DNA of 64,000 bases, from NCBI GenBank assembly GCA_002840735.1, contig PHBY01000006.1, forward strand, positions 62,001 to 126,000, in the 5' to 3' direction. This document shows positions 44,928 to 57,825 of the stretch, one piece after another; positions within the stretch are counted from its first letter, which is position 1; each line of letters begins with the position of its first letter. The notes below the pieces were generated by a model. That model was not told where the DNA came from and ran no database searches. It was given only the letters and a program-made list of their open reading frames with translations. The position numbers and the translations under genes were made by a program. This DNA comes from Chloroflexi bacterium HGW-Chloroflexi-2. Its GTDB lineage: Bacteria > Chloroflexota > Anaerolineae > Anaerolineales > Anaerolineaceae.

Positions 44928-44944
44928 ATATATTGTACTTTGTT

Positions 44945-46072
44945 ATGATAAAAGAAACTTTATCCTCCACGATTGAAAGAACATTAGCTTTGCTTGAAAT
45001 TTTTATGCAAAATCCTGAGGGTTTAAATCCTCAGGAAATTCTAGAGCAAACCAAAATTTCACGTAGCACACTCTTTACTTTATTAAAAGAATTGAAAGAT
45101 ATCGGATATCTCGATCAATCTGAAACACGTGGGCGTTACATTGCCGGTCCACGTCTGTTATCCTGGTCGGGAATGAATTCACCCTCTTACCAGACATTAA
45201 TCAATGTTTTTCAACAGGAATTACACAGCAAAACATTTTCTGAGACACTCGCATTGGCGGTTCACGGTCCAAATGGTATCTTATTATTGGATCAAAGAGA
45301 GGCGGATCAGATCATCAGAGCTGTCTATTCTGTGGGTGAGCCACTTTCCGATGACACCGCAGCTTATAGCATTTTAATTCCACCTTATCAACCCCAGGTT
45401 GTTCAAGACGGCTATCGTTTACGGGAAAATAATGATTATTTTGAAATAGCTGTCCCAATTTGTGCAGACGGTATCAAGCCAATCGCCGGACTATTGCTCA
45501 CAGTACCAAAATATCGCTGGATAACTCAACAACTTCTGGATGAATGGATGCCGGAATTAAGAGCAATGGCTGCCCGCATTTCATATCGTCTGGGCGCTCT
45601 TCAATACAGTCCTTATCACCACGATCAACAATCTTCATTTCAGCCCACTACATTGATGAATGATTCTCAGATAACGCAATTCCTGATCGGTCCCTGGACT
45701 GCCCGATTGGCTTGTATTCGACCTGATGGTCATCCGCATGTCATACCTGTCTGGCAGGAATGGGATGGCAAAAAATTCAACGTTCTCGCCTGGCATGGTA
45801 GTCAGTGGGTGGATTATATTCGCAAAAATCCGCAGGTTTCTCTTACAGTTGACGAACCCTGGGCTCCATATAGACGTGTTGTGATGCGCGGCTCTGCCAA
45901 AGAAGTGTTAAATGTTGATATTGATACCCGAACAACTCTACTTAGCAAATTATCCAAACGTTATCTGGGACAGGATACCCCACAGCGGTTTATTAACCAG
46001 GTAGAAACTGTTTTTACAATCTTCCCTGAAACCCTGAGAGGATGGGTGGGACTGGCGGCAGAAAAGAATTAA
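44945..46072 (+). CDS. IclR-type regulator fused to a PPOX (FMN/F420-binding) domain
   Basis: About 375 residues from ATG 44945. Residues 1-70 are an IclR winged helix (ALLEIFMQNPEGLNPQEI, SRSTLFTLLKELKDIGYLDQ). Residues ~75-215 fit the IclR effector domain, shortened and weakly conserved (LALAVHGPNGILLLDQ, VPICADGIKPIAGLLLTVP). Residues ~235-375 are a pyridoxamine-5'-phosphate-oxidase-like split barrel (ARLACIRPDGHPHVIPVW, VSLTVDEPWAPYRRVVMRG). The regulator may sense a flavin, F420 or vitamin-B6-like ligand. It is followed after 3 bp by an ABC importer operon, which it probably controls. Confidence 0.78.
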   Translation: MIKETLSSTIERTLALLEIFMQNPEGLNPQEILEQTKISRSTLFTLLKELKDIGYLDQSETRGRYIAGPRLLSWSGMNSPSYQTLINVFQQELHSKTFSETLALAVHGPNGILLLDQREADQIIRAVYSVGEPLSDDTAAYSILIPPYQPQVVQDGYRLRENNDYFEIAVPICADGIKPIAGLLLTVPKYRWITQQLLDEWMPELRAMAARISYRLGALQYSPYHHDQQSSFQPTTLMNDSQITQFLIGPWTARLACIRPDGHPHVIPVWQEWDGKKFNVLAWHGSQWVDYIRKNPQVSLTVDEPWAPYRRVVMRGSAKEVLNVDIDTRTTLLSKLSKRYLGQDTPQRFINQVETVFTIFPETLRGWVGLAAEKN

Positions 46073-48690: not shown

Positions 48691-48777
48691 AAACCTCACT
48701 CAAAGAACTGATCACTCGAGAAGATCACATCTTATGGTATGCTAAAATACATTCATTCCATTGAACAGAGAGAAACT

Positions 48778-49500
48778 ATGACTGAATTACTTTACCAAAA
48801 AGATAGTTATTTACAGGAATTTCATGCCGTCGTGTCAGCCATCGATCCAGAATCTCATGCTATCAGTCTGGATCAAACCGCCTTTTATCCGGGTGGTGGA
48901 GGTCAACCCAACGACACGGGTTGGATCACCCTGGATGGTCATTCGATGGATGTAATTCGGGTGAAAAAAATTGGTGATCAGGTCTGGCATACCCTTACTC
49001 CAGAAGGAAACCTCCCACAACCGGGAACAATACTGAATGCTAAAATTAATTGGCAACGCCGCTATCAACTGATGCGTACCCACTCTGCCATGCATGTGCT
49101 CTGTGGTGTTGTTTTTCGCGATTATGGCGCTCTTGTGACCGGTGGAAATATGGATCCATTGGAAGGTAGAATGGATTTCGAATTCGAGAACCTCGGCAAA
49201 GACCTGGTTCATGTTATCGAAGAGGCGGTTAACACAGAAATTCAGAAAGATCATCCCATTCGTGTACAGATTCTTCCCCGCGAGGAAGCTTTCCAGATTC
49301 CTGATTTGATTCGCACAAAAATTAATTTATTGCCGGAAGGAATTAACAAAATCCGCACGATAGAGATTGTGGGTCTTGACCTCCAGGCAGATGGCGGTAC
49401 CCATGTTCGTTCAACCTCAGAAATTGGTAAAGCTCATATTGTTGATTACAAGTCCAAAGGGAAGATCAACAAACGTATTTACTTAAAGCTGGACGAGTAG
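48778..49500 (+). CDS. Alanyl-tRNA editing protein (AlaX-M type)
   Basis: 240 residues from ATG 48778, with gagag before it. It is a free-standing editing domain that hydrolyses Ser (or Gly) mischarged on tRNA-Ala. An N-terminal beta domain (TAFYPGGGGQPNDTG) precedes the editing core with HxxxH (His102, His106) and DGGTH (205-209); the usual Cys of the second zinc pair is Asp here (QADGGTH), a variant I believe also occurs in AlaX-M proteins. It is followed after 11 bp by the ProRS-like gene, probably in one operon. Confidence 0.87.
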   Translation: MTELLYQKDSYLQEFHAVVSAIDPESHAISLDQTAFYPGGGGQPNDTGWITLDGHSMDVIRVKKIGDQVWHTLTPEGNLPQPGTILNAKINWQRRYQLMRTHSAMHVLCGVVFRDYGALVTGGNMDPLEGRMDFEFENLGKDLVHVIEEAVNTEIQKDHPIRVQILPREEAFQIPDLIRTKINLLPEGINKIRTIEIVGLDLQADGGTHVRSTSEIGKAHIVDYKSKGKINKRIYLKLDE

Positions 49501-49511
49501 AACGATCTACC

Positions 49512-51269
49512 ATGCGCATGTCACAACTGTTCAATCAAACGCTGCGTGAGTTTCCCGCTGATGCAACCACTCCTGGAAATCAATTTTTACAACGTGCCGG
49601 ATATGTTCGCGAGGTTGCTAGTAATGTTTACGTTCTGAACCCTTTGGGGAACCGCAGCCTTCAAAAAATCAAAAACATGATTCGGCAGGAACTCAATTCG
49701 CTCAATGGACAGGAAGTGAATATTCCATCATTATTTTCTGAAGAAATATTGGCAAAAAGATCAGTCCATTCCTTTGTGGATGTTGATATGCTGGATGTAT
49801 CTGATTCTTTATCTCATCAAATGTATTTATCCAGTACAGCGCATCATTATCTGGCAGATCTACTCCAGCAATCCATTCGTTCTCATCGGCAATTACCCAG
49901 ACTTCTGTATCAGATTCAACCCAGAACACTGAATGGAAGGCAAAACCGGACTGGTTTATTGTCAGCCAGATCCGTGACCAGATTGGAAACATTTTTTCTG
50001 GATAAAGACCAGACCAGCGCAACCCAACATTATCAGCGACTGATTCAGACATTCGAAAATATATTGAAATGCTGCACATTGCCCGTTTCAACGGTTAAAT
50101 TTGATTACAAACAACCCAAACCACAATCCGGATCTGAATTCTTTTTCTTGCACCCCCAGGGAGATACGACATTACTTTATTGTGAATCATGTGGATATCT
50201 TGTAAACAAAGCATCTGCCAGCGTTGAAAAACAACCTAATAAATCTGAACCATTAGCATCCCTGGAAAAAATCCATACTCCAAACACAAAAACCATTGAG
50301 GATCTGGCGAAATTCCTGGATATTCCTGCTTCCCGAACCGCCAAAGCTGTTTTTATGACTGCCACCATGATAGAGAATTGTGAAAAAACTGAAAAAGTGA
50401 TTATGGCCATTGTCCGTGGAGACATGGACCTGAATGAAAGCAAACTTGCCCGAGTGATAAATGCATTGGCTATTCGTCCATCCACAAATTCAGAAATTCA
50501 ATCTATCGGCGCAGTCCCCGGATTTGCTTCCCCCGTGGGGCTAAAAGTTGCTCTGATCGTTGTGGATGATTTGATTCCAAATTCCCCCAATCTGGTTGCG
50601 GGAGCGAATGAAACCGATTTCCATTTCAAGCATGCCAATTACGGTCGTGATTTTCAGGCAAATATTCTCGCAGATATCACCGAAGTAGAAACCGATGCTG
50701 CCTGTCCGCACTGTAATCAACTCCTTTCAGTACAATCCGCATTTTTAGTGGGTAAAATCACCTCCCCGGACACCCTATTGGCTTCGGAAACTGGTTGTAA
50801 CTTTCAGGATGAATCCGGAGAACTTAAACCAATCTTCCTTGGTTCAGCATGGCTCGATCTTGAGCGCATTCTGGGAGGAGTGGCGGAAACGAGGAATGAT
50901 GATTATGGACTGATCTGGCCAATTTCCCTCACGCCATACCAGGTTCATCTGGTCGTTTTACCAGCCAAAAATACCGATCAACCGCAGGTGTTCGCTGAAA
51001 ATCTGTATCAGGAATTACAACGAGCACGCATAGAAGTCCTGTTTGATGATCGCAAGGAAAGTCCCGGGGTAAAGTTCAATGATGCCGATTTGTTGGGAAT
51101 CCCATTGAGGATTACCGTAGCCGAAAAGAGCTTATCGCAGGGGCAGGTCGAATTTAAAATTCGAGACGAAAAGGAAAAAACAAACGTCCCTATGGAGGAT
51201 GTACTTCCACAAAGCATGCATACACTCCTTCGATTGGAAAGAGAGATTGCACAATCGCTGGTGAAGTAA
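49512..51269 (+). CDS. Prolyl-tRNA synthetase-like protein with degraded catalytic motifs
   Basis: 585 residues, colinear with bacterial ProRS: class II core, YbaK-like editing insert (about 250-400; TAKAVF, VRGDMDLNESKL and GANETDFHFKHANYGRDF conserved), zinc-like Cys pairs (CESC, CPHC), anticodon-binding domain (about 480-585; VEVLFDDRKESPGVKFNDADLLGIP). Motif 2, normally FRDE followed by RxRFGxMRxREFxMKD, reads QIQPRTLNGRQNRTGLLSAR (134-153), and motif 3, normally GSYGIGVSR, reads GSAWLDLER (444-452); the proline-site segment GHIFxLGTKYS is KITSPDTLLAS. Aminoacylation is therefore doubtful while editing may persist. Could be a regulatory or trans-editing paralogue, or a decaying duplicate. 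Confidence 0.8.
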   Translation: MRMSQLFNQTLREFPADATTPGNQFLQRAGYVREVASNVYVLNPLGNRSLQKIKNMIRQELNSLNGQEVNIPSLFSEEILAKRSVHSFVDVDMLDVSDSLSHQMYLSSTAHHYLADLLQQSIRSHRQLPRLLYQIQPRTLNGRQNRTGLLSARSVTRLETFFLDKDQTSATQHYQRLIQTFENILKCCTLPVSTVKFDYKQPKPQSGSEFFFLHPQGDTTLLYCESCGYLVNKASASVEKQPNKSEPLASLEKIHTPNTKTIEDLAKFLDIPASRTAKAVFMTATMIENCEKTEKVIMAIVRGDMDLNESKLARVINALAIRPSTNSEIQSIGAVPGFASPVGLKVALIVVDDLIPNSPNLVAGANETDFHFKHANYGRDFQANILADITEVETDAACPHCNQLLSVQSAFLVGKITSPDTLLASETGCNFQDESGELKPIFLGSAWLDLERILGGVAETRNDDYGLIWPISLTPYQVHLVVLPAKNTDQPQVFAENLYQELQRARIEVLFDDRKESPGVKFNDADLLGIPLRITVAEKSLSQGQVEFKIRDEKEKTNVPMEDVLPQSMHTLLRLEREIAQSLVK

Positions 51270-53812: not shown

Positions 53813-54304
53813 ATGGATTTATTCACAATTAGAAATGTTCAAAAAGAAGATCGGGAATGGATTAAAAGGTGGCTGATATTTCAATGGGGGGCAGAGATCG
53901 TCGTCTCTCATGATACTGTGTTTCACCCCTCTGATCTACCTGGATTTATAGCTGTGACCTCCAGCTCTGAAGAGCCTCTCGGTTTGGTCACCTACCATTT
54001 TGATGGAGATGATTGTGAAATCGTCACCCTGGATTCTTTGCGCGAGGGTATTGGGATCGGCGCTGCATTAATTGAAGCTGTTAAACAACATGCCCAAAAT
54101 GTGGGTTGTAAAAGGTTATTCCTGGTCACTACCAACGATAATATCTATTCTCTGCGCTTTTATCAAAAAAGGGGGTTTCGGATGACCAAAATAAACATTG
54201 GAGCCACTGACCGCGCCAGAAAGAAAAAACCAGAAATTTCGACGGTTGGTTATTTCGGTATACCCATCCACGATGAAATTGAGCTGGAATATCGCCTGGA
54301 GTAG
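53813..54304 (+). CDS. GNAT family N-acetyltransferase
   Basis: 163 residues. The acetyl-CoA binding motif A is seen as LREGIGIGAALIEAVKQHA, preceded by strand 4 (CEIVTLDS) and followed by LFLVTTNDNIYSLRFYQKRGFRM, the family's motif B. Substrate unknown. AGAAGG precedes the ATG. Confidence 0.88.
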   Translation: MDLFTIRNVQKEDREWIKRWLIFQWGAEIVVSHDTVFHPSDLPGFIAVTSSSEEPLGLVTYHFDGDDCEIVTLDSLREGIGIGAALIEAVKQHAQNVGCKRLFLVTTNDNIYSLRFYQKRGFRMTKINIGATDRARKKKPEISTVGYFGIPIHDEIELEYRLE

Positions 54305-54430
54305 GATTTAATTTCATTTGCAAGAATTATTTGGATATATAATAACTGCCAGCCCTAAAACATAAAAGAAGACCAAAATATTGATGCATTTATCATTTAA
54401 TAAAATCCCACATTTCCTTGTTTCTGCAAC

Positions 54431-55048
54431 ATGTATTTTCTGACACAGGGAATTGTTTTCGGTTTGTATGCAGCTTTCCTGCCTGGACCTATGCAGGCAT
54501 TTTTGCTTTCTCAAATCATCCGTTCTGGATGGAAACGCACACTTCCATTAGCATTGATTCCCCTTGGTTCCGATGGGCCAGTAATGCTATCATTATTCTT
54601 TCTACTTTCCCAACTCCCGCTCTGGTTTACGCATGGTTTGAGAATCATCGGAGGTTTCTATATTTTATACCTTGCCTGGGATGCATATAAAACATCAAAA
54701 AAGACTGAAGATATCTCATTAACGGATGTAGCACCAAGTGGACAGCGGGTGACTTTTCTAAAAGGGATCACCATGAATTTGCTGAATCCGAATGTGTACA
54801 TCTTTTGGGCGACGATCGGGGTTCCAACCATTCTTACTGGTTGGCAAATATCACCCTTACGTGGCTTATCTTTCGCTTTGGGATTTTATGGAACTATGAT
54901 TCCTGCGACAATGGCCTGGATAACACTTTTCGGAACCATTGGATATTTGAAGCCATCGATCAAAATAACAATTGGGCGATTGATCATCATCCTATTACTC
55001 ATCGTGGGTTTCTCCATGATGATAACCGGAATAAAAGCAATAATCTAA
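54431..55048 (+). CDS. LysE/RhtB family amino-acid exporter
   Basis: 205 residues, six hydrophobic helices. The N-terminal signature GIVFGLYAAFLPGPMQAFLLSQIIRSGW and the conserved FLKGITMNLLNPNVYIFW match LysE-type exporters. No ribosome binding site is visible before the ATG. It ends 53 bp before tgt. Confidence 0.85.
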   Translation: MYFLTQGIVFGLYAAFLPGPMQAFLLSQIIRSGWKRTLPLALIPLGSDGPVMLSLFFLLSQLPLWFTHGLRIIGGFYILYLAWDAYKTSKKTEDISLTDVAPSGQRVTFLKGITMNLLNPNVYIFWATIGVPTILTGWQISPLRGLSFALGFYGTMIPATMAWITLFGTIGYLKPSIKITIGRLIIILLLIVGFSMMITGIKAII

Positions 55049-55066
55049 TCAATCTACCAGATTTGC

Positions 55067-55095
55067 TTGCCGACTGATCTCTCTTCAGGCATAAT
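55067..55095 (+). promoter_or_regulatory. tgt-operon promoter giving leaderless mRNA
   Basis: TTGCCG (55067-55072), a 17-bp spacer and CATAAT (55090-55095). Six nt separate the -10 box from ATG 55102, so transcription should begin at the start codon; no Shine-Dalgarno is present. Confidence 0.6.
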
Positions 55096-55101
55096 CTAAG
55101 T

Positions 55102-56214
55102 ATGACCTATCCTTTTGTGCGTTCGCTTTCTTTACCTCATGGGGAGCTTGATTTTCCGGTATTTATACCGGATGCCACCTTTGGTATGGTCAGGTCCGTG
55201 GATAGTGTCGATCTGGAACAGGCAAAAATCCAGGCTGTCGTGATGAATGCTTTTCATCTGATGCAAAAACCTGGCACCAGCACTATTCAATCATTGGGTG
55301 GATTGCACGCCATGAGTGGCTGGAATCGTCCCATCATTACCGATTCAGGCGGTTTTCAGGCGTATTCCTTGATCCGGCAGAATCCAAAATTCGGGAATAT
55401 GACACCGAAAGGAATCAATTTTCAGCCCGAAGGATCCAGTCGTAAATTTCAACTGACCCCTGAAAAGAGCATTCAATTACAATTAGCCTATGGCGCTGAT
55501 GTGGTCATTTGCCTGGATGATTGCACCCATGTGGATGCGTCGGATGCAGAGCAGGAACTCAGTGTGGAGCGCACCATTTCCTGGGCTAAAAGCTGCCGGG
55601 AGACTTTTGACAAACTCGTTTCACAAAAGAAGCTGAATGACAAAAACCATCCCCTTTTATTTGGTGTCATTCAGGGTGGTGGCATCAAGGACTTACGCAA
55701 ACATTGTGCGGATGAATTACTGAAAATTGGTTTTGATGGCTATGGGTACGGTGGCTGGCCTCTGGATGGAGAAGGCAACTTGCTCACGGATATACTTACC
55801 CACACCCGTAATTTGGTTCCGGAGCAATATCCCATGCATGCGCTGGGTATTGGCCATCCGTATAATGTGCTGGTATGTTATCAATTGGGTTATGGAATAT
55901 TTGATTGCGCCATGCCTACCCGGGATGCCCGTCATGGACGCCTGTACCAGTTCGCCAACAACCAGGACGCCCCCAATGCGGGATTATCGGGCAACTGGCT
56001 GAAATATCTTTACATCAACGACCAGGAGCATATCAAACATCCTGGACCGCTCACAGAGGGGTGCGATTGCCTGACCTGTAGCCGTTACTCACGCGGATAT
56101 CTACATCATTTATTTAAAATGAACGACAGCCTGTTCTTGCGTCTGGCAACTATTCATAATTTACGTTTTATGACTCAATTAACCGAACGGATTCAAAAAA
56201 TAACCCATGGATGA
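55102..56214 (+). CDS. tgt: tRNA-guanine transglycosylase family protein with altered substrate loop
   Basis: 370 residues. It exchanges G34 of GUN-anticodon tRNAs for a queuosine precursor. Conserved: general Asp81 in TDSGGFQ, LDDCT, IQGG, nucleophile Asp268 in FDCAMPTR, zinc Cys321/323/326 (CDCLTC) plus the late His in ATIHN. The base-contact loop, GGLAVGE in preQ1-using bacterial enzymes, is GGWPLDGE (217-224): Leu to Trp and one residue longer. This is the loop that separates preQ1-specific from queuine-accepting enzymes, so the substrate may differ. Its stop overlaps the first Arm-type methyltransferase gene by 8 bp; a queuosine-precursor transporter lies 4 kb downstream. Confidence 0.88.
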   Translation: MTYPFVRSLSLPHGELDFPVFIPDATFGMVRSVDSVDLEQAKIQAVVMNAFHLMQKPGTSTIQSLGGLHAMSGWNRPIITDSGGFQAYSLIRQNPKFGNMTPKGINFQPEGSSRKFQLTPEKSIQLQLAYGADVVICLDDCTHVDASDAEQELSVERTISWAKSCRETFDKLVSQKKLNDKNHPLLFGVIQGGGIKDLRKHCADELLKIGFDGYGYGGWPLDGEGNLLTDILTHTRNLVPEQYPMHALGIGHPYNVLVCYQLGYGIFDCAMPTRDARHGRLYQFANNQDAPNAGLSGNWLKYLYINDQEHIKHPGPLTEGCDCLTCSRYSRGYLHHLFKMNDSLFLRLATIHNLRFMTQLTERIQKITHG

Positions 56215-57010
56215 ACAACTAGAAAAAATGGTCAAACAGGTCCAGGATGGCGCGAAATATCGCTCCATTCATCCTGATTTGATTGAAAATATTGCCAGAA
56301 TTGAACTGAAAAAAGGTCGATCCTGGAAAGATTCAATAAAAGCTATACGCAACAAACTTCATCAGGTCGGTTCAGCGTACCAACCCCAGGGTATCGACTA
56401 TGAGCGTTTGTATTCTGAAATGAAAAGTCTTCCCCAGGATATTCATAATCCGGAAGTAAGAAGATTTTTAATCCAGACCATGGGAAATCATGCCTCCACC
56501 CGGGAACGCTTGCAGGTTCTTGATCAATTTTTTCTCGAGACTCTCTCTTCTCTTTCCCCTATCGATTCAATTCTGGATGTTGCCTGTGGGCTCAATCCTT
56601 TAGCATTGGCATGGATGCCAGTCACACCTTCCATTCAATTAACGGTCTGCGATATATACGTGGATCAAGTTGAATTTTTGAATTCTTTTTTTGAACACTT
56701 CAACATCCATGGCAAGGCATACTGCTGCGATCTCACACAACAAATACCACAGGAAAAAGCTCAAATCGGATTGGTGTTAAAGACCATTCCCTGCCTGGAA
56801 CAAATCGACAAAAACATTGGTGCCAAGATCCTCCAGGATTTACCATGTCAAAATTTGTTGGTGAGTTTTCCTGCGCAATCATTGTCCGGGAAAAAGAAAG
56901 GTATGCGCCATTTCTACAGCGAGCATTTCCAGACTTTATTACACAACACCGGTTGGGATGTTTCGACTTTTTCTTTCCCGAATGAACAGGCATTTTTGAT
57001 TAAAAAATGA
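56207..57010 (+). CDS. Arm/FmrO-type 16S rRNA (guanine1405-N7)-methyltransferase homologue, copy 1
   Basis: 267 residues. N-terminal helical rRNA-binding domain (KGRSWKDSIKAIRNKLHQVGSAYQ), the HASTRERLQVLDQFF segment, then a SAM fold: LDVACGLNPLALAWM (Asp124 region), LKTIPCLEQ and VSFPAQSLSGKKKGM. These are the signatures of the aminoglycoside-resistance methyltransferases (ArmA, Rmt, Sgm). It is predicted to methylate N7 of G1405 in the decoding site and so to block kanamycin/gentamicin-type drugs. Not associated with an antibiotic cluster or mobile gene here. Overlaps tgt (8 bp) and copy 2 (ATGA). Confidence 0.87.
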   Translation: MDEQLEKMVKQVQDGAKYRSIHPDLIENIARIELKKGRSWKDSIKAIRNKLHQVGSAYQPQGIDYERLYSEMKSLPQDIHNPEVRRFLIQTMGNHASTRERLQVLDQFFLETLSSLSPIDSILDVACGLNPLALAWMPVTPSIQLTVCDIYVDQVEFLNSFFEHFNIHGKAYCCDLTQQIPQEKAQIGLVLKTIPCLEQIDKNIGAKILQDLPCQNLLVSFPAQSLSGKKKGMRHFYSEHFQTLLHNTGWDVSTFSFPNEQAFLIKK

Positions 57011-57825
57011 GTCGCTTAACACTTTCCGAAGACGAAATCAGCCAATATGCTCAGGAAGTCTTACAATCCCCAAAATATCGGTCAATCGATATTCCTCAGG
57101 ATTTAATCGAGTCGCTCTACATCCAGGAAGCTCCCCATCATAAACACCTTCAGGATTTGCATAAAGCTGTGCGAAAGAAGCTCCACAACATCGTTGCAAC
57201 CTATCTGGGTGACAGCGACTATGATCAGGCAACCATGGATCTGAAAGAAGCCTTCCGGCAGGATGAACAGGCTATCAAAGCTACCTGTACACAAATCCTC
57301 AAAAGCCATATTTCCACGCAGGAACGCATCACTTTCCTGGATGTTTTTTACCAGGAAATTTTTAGCAGGGTCGGAAAACCGCAACTCATCCTTGATCTGG
57401 CCTGTGGATACCATCCATTTGGTCTCCCCTGGATGAATCTTGATCAAAATTGCCAGTATTATGCCTATGATATCATCAAAGCCAGAGTGGAATTCATAAA
57501 CACCTTTTTCAATTTATTAAACAGACCTCCGTTAGCCATTCAACAGGATATTTTGATCCACCCACCTCAAATGGAAGCAGATGTAGCCTTTTTCTTCAAG
57601 GAAGCGCATCGTTTTGATCAACGCCAGCGTGGTTGCAATCGTAATTTCTGGCAGGCTTTAAAGGTCAAACATCTACTGGTCTCACTACCGGCAACCAGCA
57701 TGAGCATGCGCCACGACAAATCAGTCCAACATCGCAGATTGATTTATGACACCCTGAAGGACTTAAATTGGTCGGTTGAGGAATTTCAGGTCGAAAATGA
57801 ATTAATCTTCTGGATAAGAAAATAG
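57007..57825 (+). CDS. Arm/FmrO-type 16S rRNA methyltransferase homologue, copy 2 (divergent)
   Basis: 272 residues, colinear with copy 1 and starting within its stop (ATGA). N-terminal domain: HHKHLQDLHKAVRKKLHNIVATYL; SHISTQERITFLDVFYQEIF; SAM loop LDLACGYHPFGLPWM (Asp130 region) instead of GLNPLAL; FFKEAHRFDQ in place of LKTIPCLEQ; and SLPATSMSMRHDKSV in place of SFPAQSLSGKKKGM. The overall fold is kept but several near-invariant residues differ, so it may have another target, or form a heterodimer with copy 1. Confidence 0.78.
   Translation: MSRLTLSEDEISQYAQEVLQSPKYRSIDIPQDLIESLYIQEAPHHKHLQDLHKAVRKKLHNIVATYLGDSDYDQATMDLKEAFRQDEQAIKATCTQILKSHISTQERITFLDVFYQEIFSRVGKPQLILDLACGYHPFGLPWMNLDQNCQYYAYDIIKARVEFINTFFNLLNRPPLAIQQDILIHPPQMEADVAFFFKEAHRFDQRQRGCNRNFWQALKVKHLLVSLPATSMSMRHDKSVQHRRLIYDTLKDLNWSVEEFQVENELIFWIRK

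Follow-up and report, generated by a model that had tools for sequence, protein, structure and literature searches.

A former bacterial prolyl-tRNA synthetase (ProRS) encoded in the window, i.e., the whole 64,000-nucleotide stretch of DNA analysed here, is best read as a two-domain trans-editing factor that would use its editing insert (INS) and its anticodon-binding domain (ABD) on mischarged tRNA-Pro, probably Ala-tRNA-Pro, made by a family I ProRS devoid of INS; we put the probability of this reading at roughly 0.7. The loss of the charging site, with the parts that recognise tRNA and edit being kept, suggests that the protein is probably now confined to proofreading on behalf of a separate, charging enzyme.

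The degraded synthetase, its locus and its genome

The open reading frame at 49512-51269 (+) starts with ATG and encodes 585 amino acids that align end to end with family II (bacterial-type) ProRS. Full-length similarity to this family was indicated by the profile TIGR00409 (proS_fam_II; 354 bits vs. a cut-off of 306.7, residues 1-565), and the best PDB matches were bacterial ProRS, with 5znj at the top (residues 1-565). The stricter profile NF006625 remained below its cut-off (429.5 vs. 558), as did the class II core PF00587 (28.2 vs. 29.3 bits), while tRNA_edit (PF04073, 71.3 bits) and HGTP_anticodon (PF03129, 72.8 bits) were both far over theirs. The features of the locus are given below, where "dead" denotes relatives that score none of four catalytic signatures.

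48739..49500, +: AlaX-M-like alanyl-tRNA editing protein, with a downstream ATG at 48778 (NF040865, PDB matches, motifs)
49512..51269, +: catalytically degraded family II ProRS, 585 aa (profile and PDB matches, conserved columns)
49512..49601, +: N-terminal strap, residues 1-30, kept even in relatives of ~400 aa
49602..50231, +: former aminoacylation domain, first part, residues 31-240 (42/95 conserved columns kept over residues 1-240)
49836..49844, +: lost TxE loop, residues 109-111 (TAH; comparison with intact congeners)
49911..49985, +: lost motif 2, residues 134-158 (comparison with intact congeners)
50181..50192, +: first CxxC pair, C224/C227, possibly zinc-binding (present in 96% and 92% of the 52 dead relatives, respectively)
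50259..50666, +: INS (YbaK-like) editing domain, residues 250-385 (PF04073 at 256-376; 35/38 columns kept)
50343..50345, +: K278, counterpart of E. coli ProRS K279 and the conserved lysine of INS, found in 52/52 dead relatives
50520..50534, +: GXXXP loop, G337-P341 (G337 in 52/52 dead relatives, P341 in a fraction of 0.94)
50667..50891, +: former aminoacylation domain, second part, residues 386-460, where the proline-site segment and motif 3 are lost (10/25 conserved columns kept)
50703..50714, +: second CxxC pair, C398/C401 (either cysteine present in 96% of the 52 dead relatives)
50841..50867, +: degenerate motif 3, residues 444-452, R452 kept (comparison with intact congeners)
50904..51266, +: ABD, residues 465-585 (PF03129 at 480-565; 21/22 columns kept)

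Compared with intact congeners, the TxE loop has changed from T109-x-E111 to T109-A-H111, motif 2 from FRDD (139-142) to TLNG and from RVREF (151-155) to SARSV, the proline-site segment from GNIF (414-417) to GKIT, and motif 3, most of which is lost, from GSYGIGVGR (444-452) to GSAWLDLER. The first-pass annotation had listed motif 2, motif 3 and the proline-site segment, and not the TxE loop, as having lost their hallmark residues; the degradation of all three was confirmed, although the wording was slightly overstated, since R153, G444, S445 and R452, the arginine of motif 3, are still there. T109 is present as well. Proline activation depends on the TxE loop and on class II motifs 2 and 3, none of which persists in working form, so the protein was not classed as a working ProRS; it would not be expected to activate proline.

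When columns with at least 95% conservation across 92 intact relatives are counted, the protein keeps 42/95 and 10/25 in the two catalytic halves and 35/38 and 21/22 in INS and ABD, respectively, a selective retention that exceeds chance and bears out the earlier statement that the YbaK-like insert and the anticodon-binding domain are retained. K278, G337 and P341, within the YbaK-like fold recognised by PF04073, place the insert in the INS superfamily; the role of the lysine is taken from PMC10164551 and PMC3973320, and the GXXXP motif is named in PMC11286415. ProXp-ala, a single freestanding INS nearest to PDB 5vxb, is a different kind of protein from this multidomain one, and 5vxb is absent from its 42 PDB matches at E 0.001. 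Nor was a ThrRS-type editing domain found by PRK14938, which reached 18.7 bits against a cut-off of 362 and covered only residues 469-564, i.e., the ABD. An AF2 model of the window protein was poor in the catalytic region because its alignment contained no full-length relatives.

The assembly (4.1 Mb, 40 contigs) is 99.9% complete. The earlier proposal hinged on a second proS in the genome, and one was found: a 477-aa family I (eukaryote/archaea-type, E/A-type) ProRS without INS (581 bits vs. a cut-off of 437; G000:C7:292271-293680), so that the hypothesis of the degraded gene being the only ProRS, which would have refuted the proposal, was rejected; no second family II copy was detected in this genome. 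PF04073 matched three places, namely the INS of the window protein, a ProXp-x-like protein (L004) whose nearest PDB entry is 2cx5, called ProXp-x in PMC11295145, and a YbaK-like protein (L005) nearest to E. coli YbaK, with 5vxb absent from the PDB matches of both. Three tRNA-Pro genes (anticodons TGG, CGG and GGG) were found among 44 tRNA matches. Elsewhere in the window, a 379-aa open reading frame at 44933-46072 (+) combines an IclR-type HTH (41 bits) with a pyridoxamine 5'-phosphate oxidase-like domain (40 bits) and precedes an ABC-transporter gene set whose permease and binding protein were assigned by eye.

The AlaX-like frame ends at 49500, 11 bp before the degraded ProRS, as the first-pass annotation had noted. 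It matches AlaX/AlaRS editing domains in the PDB, carries the motifs HSAMH and ADGGTH, and scores 280.4 bits with NF040865 (AlaXM) vs. a curated cut-off of 300 that 0/151 genomes of the order reach. A zinc-site defect (ADGGTH instead of CGGTH) was considered and rejected, since ADGGTH occurs in 10/10 relatives read and is therefore ordinary. AlaX lies directly upstream of the ProRS gene in 8/8 genomes of the genus, including the four in which ProRS is intact (in G218 it is cut by the contig end). The pairing is thus older than the loss and cannot be a product of the dead state; AlaX does adjoin the gene, but its position is weak evidence for the dedicated quality-control operon suggested earlier, and directing such an operon against Ala/Ser/Cys mischarging is too broad, because the genome also carries a YbaK-like protein for Cys-tRNA-Pro. 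AlaX-like frames occurred in 11/155 fetched loci, whose flanks were of unequal length. In a separate arrangement from that of the window genus, four loci of family f5 (L049, L051, L053, L069) place AlaX, in the same orientation, ~1.5-1.9 kb downstream of the dead ProRS gene, with a frame of ~278-297 aa between the two in L049, L051 and L053.

Decay of the charging site among relatives

Reading 155 family II-like loci, which with the window represent 156 genomes, yielded 146 relatives complete at both ends, the 10/156 rows cut at contig ends being left out. They were scored for four signatures (THEE-like, [FW]R[DE][DE], REF and GSYG-like), with 3-4 counted as intact and 0 as dead: 94 were intact and 52 dead, with none at 1-2. 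The dead proteins are spread over 6 families and 22 genera, and 52/146 is not a population frequency, since the samples, 151 genomes at order level and 121 at family level, overlap and are nested. The 52/94 count excludes ~13 near-full-length matches, G037 and the fragments G250 and G251; the ~13 look intact by length alone and their genomes have no family I match, so the intact count is low.

Dead relatives keep on average 27% and 30% of the conserved columns in the catalytic halves, 88% in INS and 96% in ABD, and their frames are open in all cases. Residues present in all 52 are K278, G303, G333, A334, G337, D352, G364-N366 and H371 in INS, and D512, R514, G519, K521, A525-L527, G529, R533, E547 and R551 in ABD; the catalytic E111, R140, E154, F155 and G449 are kept in 0-8%. 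Cysteines 224, 227, 398 and 401 persist in 92-96%, and in the N-terminal strap T10, R12 and R28 are conserved at 0.96, 0.98 and 1.0. At class level, where 30 of 303 matching genomes were deliberately chosen for weak matches, 26/30 picks scored 0/4 signatures, L299 scored 1, L303 scored 2, and L301 and L302 scored 3 (L305, L322 and L326 are cut or N-filled), while the INS lysine was found in 30/30. L301 and L303 retain T-x-E and may for this reason be active. L302 (G358:C5:94464-96140, family f60), a family II ProRS, may be a mirror case in which editing was lost instead of charging: its catalytic signatures are nearly intact, its GXXXP loop is altered (G-S at 337/341), and its genome also encodes a family I ProRS 61% identical to that of the window genome. 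In G079 (contig C19) a family I gene (53987-55399) adjoins a family II gene (55980-57758; L081) that has lost the TxE loop and kept the other three signatures, perhaps an early stage of decay.

In 15/52 dead proteins, all of family f12, the catalytic domain is almost completely gone, leaving ~400 aa that comprise the N-terminal strap, a CxxC pair, INS, the second CxxC pair and ABD. Scanning named genomes for this reduced form returned 91 relatives, of which 80 were kept, with titles naming Anaerolineales, Anaerolineae, Anaerolineaceae, Anaerolinea, Brevefilum, Villigracilaceae and Chloroflexi/Chloroflexota. A single open frame of 385-410 aa was present in 76/80 fetched loci; three of the exceptions (L267, L285, L294) end with the locus and the fourth, L254 (JABFGC010000002.1), has a frame break that splits the protein into two frames in this record. 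No clear operon was seen around the reduced-form loci. The AF2 model of one such protein, L218 (pLDDT 93, pTM 0.87), superposed on E. faecalis ProRS 2j3l_A over 394 residues (Z 28.4, rmsd 3.9, 32% identity), and its residues 110-247 on freestanding INS proteins, e.g., 2cx5 (Z 15.9).

Within the genus of the window, dead motifs were found in G000 (the window genome), G209, G200 and G225 and intact ones in G230, G218, G186 and G156, and a family I ProRS was over cut-off in 8/8. The window protein is 62% identical in INS+ABD to the intact L099, and no dead protein from beyond the genus exceeds 50%. Because locus and neighbours are also the same, the most probable course is that a lineage within the genus, already equipped with both ProRS genes, lost its charging site in situ. 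ProXp-ala was found in 3/4 intact genomes (5vxb being the best match in G230 and G156, with a close homologue recognised by eye in G218), not in the intact G186, and in 0/4 dead genomes, a contrast that fits a division of labour and comes from one clade.

Parsimony on the 146-row tree counted three changes between intact and dead, but a single clade of the 52 dead proteins was not rejected by the AU test (p 0.57), the constrained tree being 8.3 log units better. In a second tree of 84 rows, built under a mixture model with 30/52 dead proteins (the long rows L053, L071 and L072 omitted, others thinned by genus), the eight rows of the genus were monophyletic (support 98) and a branch, also with support 98, set the remaining dead rows to one side; uniting every dead form in a single clade cost 23.6 log units and was again not rejected (p 0.26). 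One origin for all dead forms is therefore not rejected by the AU tests. At the search threshold a family I ProRS was found in 47/52 dead vs. 59/94 intact genomes (Fisher p 3.9e-4, a value that ignores kinship), and an independent-pairs test of this association had no power. Contig-end fragments in G018 and G092 raise the dead count to 49/52, and the dead genomes lacking a match (G133, G147, G222) are 61-82% complete. Since intact family II together with family I is common, family I permits the decay of the family II charging site but does not force it.

Selection was estimated by the Nei-Gojobori method, with many dS values saturated. For the three closest dead proteins dN/dS was 0.16-0.25 in residues 31-215, 0.12-0.17 in INS and 0.095-0.14 in ABD, vs. 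0.02-0.06 in the catalytic part of four intact pairs with usable dS; the linker 216-249, which is short and has few sites, evolved faster (0.7-1.3). Between the window protein and the dead L098, dN was 0.55 in the catalytic part (31-215), 0.20 in INS and 0.21 in ABD, an order reversed between the intact L099 and L100 (0.087, 0.216 and 0.237). INS and ABD thus diverge similarly in dead and intact pairs, the catalytic part being fast only in dead ones. The dead protein is maintained by purifying selection, and the constraint on the old catalytic fold is relaxed, not absent; together with the four hallmark residues left, this means that some other use of the site is possible.

Proposed function and alternatives

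The family I ProRS without INS would charge tRNA-Pro and release some Ala-tRNA-Pro, the dead ProRS would grip the anticodon of this tRNA through its ABD, and the CCA end would enter the INS site, where the wrong amino acid, most likely alanine, would be hydrolysed. The sequence thus predicts a protein that binds tRNA-Pro and acts as a deacylase with alanine as main substrate. The first-pass idea of a synthetase that edits in trans and does not charge has gained support from the loss of the charging site with INS and ABD kept, the second ProRS and the same pattern in 52 dead relatives, and it keeps its inferential character. Editing of Ala-tRNA-Pro by E. coli ProRS needs contacts between ABD and anticodon (G35/G36) and not the acceptor stem, and this enzyme deacylates human Ala-tRNA-Pro only 5-fold more slowly (PMC3973320); if the E. 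coli rule still applies, the retention of INS and ABD with the charging domain dropped is what one would expect. ProXp-ala reads C1:G72 and A73 (PMC10164551), which are present in all three tRNA-Pro genes found in the window genome. Some of the editing could fall to the ProXp-x-like and YbaK-like proteins of this genome.

We lean, with less assurance, towards a wider proposal for the Anaerolineae, in which stepwise decay of ProRS, after an editing-less family I enzyme took over charging, would have produced a new class of trans-editing factor, an INS+ABD deacylase that reads the anticodon and not the acceptor stem and replaces ProXp-ala. The window genus would represent the first step and the ~400-aa proteins the last, the useless catalytic domain having shrunk in other lineages to leave the strap, a CxxC knuckle, INS and ABD.

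The best surviving alternative, an unlikely one, is a trans-deacylase for another substrate, such as alpha-aminobutyrate, serine or glycine on tRNA-Pro, or for other tRNAs. Substrates do vary among INS-superfamily members (PMC11295145, PMC11286415), but the INS columns of the window protein agree with intact ProRS from its own order (35/38 kept) and the kept ABD argues for tRNA-Pro. Slightly less probable is a tRNA-Pro-binding protein with no editing job and with INS as a scaffold, acting in regulation or, in the manner of HisZ, as a partner subunit of the family I enzyme. The strap and CxxC knuckle kept alongside INS and ABD, the selection still acting on the catalytic fold of the window protein and the known editing by a heterodimer partner in cyanobacterial ThrRS T1/T2 (PMC4787780) would suit such a role; a scaffold, however, would need neither the catalytic lysine nor the GXXXP glycine, and the retention of both in 52/52 dead proteins, and of the lysine in 30/30 class-level picks, counts against it.

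It is very improbable that the protein still charges proline, or ligates some other amino acid, by means of a divergent active site: R153, R452 and T109 remain and TIGR00409 (354 bits over 306.7) predicts a full-length family II fold, but the motif 2 arginine R140, E111, E154, F155 and the motif 3 glycines are lost, and the 15 dead relatives of family f12 are almost without a catalytic domain. Least probable of all is a pseudogene in decay, as the loss of several catalytic motifs and a second ProRS that makes the gene dispensable for charging might suggest, since frames are open in 52/52 dead proteins, conservation is region-specific and dN/dS is well under 1 in every large domain.

If the trans-editing reading holds, a synthetase has been dismantled into a proofreader with intermediate stages alive within one bacterial class, which would offer a natural test of what the ProRS editing domain needs for tRNA recognition and would account for clean proline codons in genomes whose ProRS lacks INS and where ProXp-ala was not detected. 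As the window protein exceeds the TIGR00409 cut-off for "proline--tRNA ligase", dead forms also risk being named as working synthetases.

Comparison with known systems

The direct parent is the bacterial family II ProRS with INS, found at the same locus in congeners and 62% identical in INS+ABD in L099; the parent charges, whereas the charging site of the window protein is lost. ProXp-ala, YbaK and ProXp-x have a homologous INS, with the lysine and the GXXXP loop, and edit mischarged tRNA-Pro where ProRS lacks INS, but they are single-domain proteins and ProXp-ala reads the acceptor stem, whereas the window INS is joined to an ABD in a ProRS frame (PMC3973320, PMC10164551, PMC11295145). A 2024 review describes trans-editing domains as generally without RNA-binding domains and, the INS of ProRS apart, the members of the INS superfamily as single-domain (PMC11295145). 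Streptomyces ProRSx is likewise a duplicated bacterial ProRS, but it charges proline on an unusual tRNA, while the window protein has no charging site (PMC9437257). The zinc-free form of Anabaena ThrRS T1 is a full synthetase that serves purely as trans-editor for a second synthetase (PMC4787780); its state is conditional and reversible, whereas the loss in the window ProRS is genetic and permanent.

No description of a dead ProRS or of an INS+ABD trans-editor was found in the open-licence PMC literature searched, and the nearest precedent is the archaeal ThrRS-ed. In Sulfolobus, ThrRS-ed hydrolyses Ser-tRNA-Thr and works beside an editing-less synthetase. It is, as proposed here, a synthetase-derived trans-editor made of an editing domain and an anticodon-binding domain (PMC11295145), so that the principle of turning a synthetase into a trans-editor is already known for ThrRS, and what we did not find described is its ProRS version with intermediates; ThrRS-ed differs in deriving from ThrRS, in being archaeal and in having an editing domain unrelated to INS.
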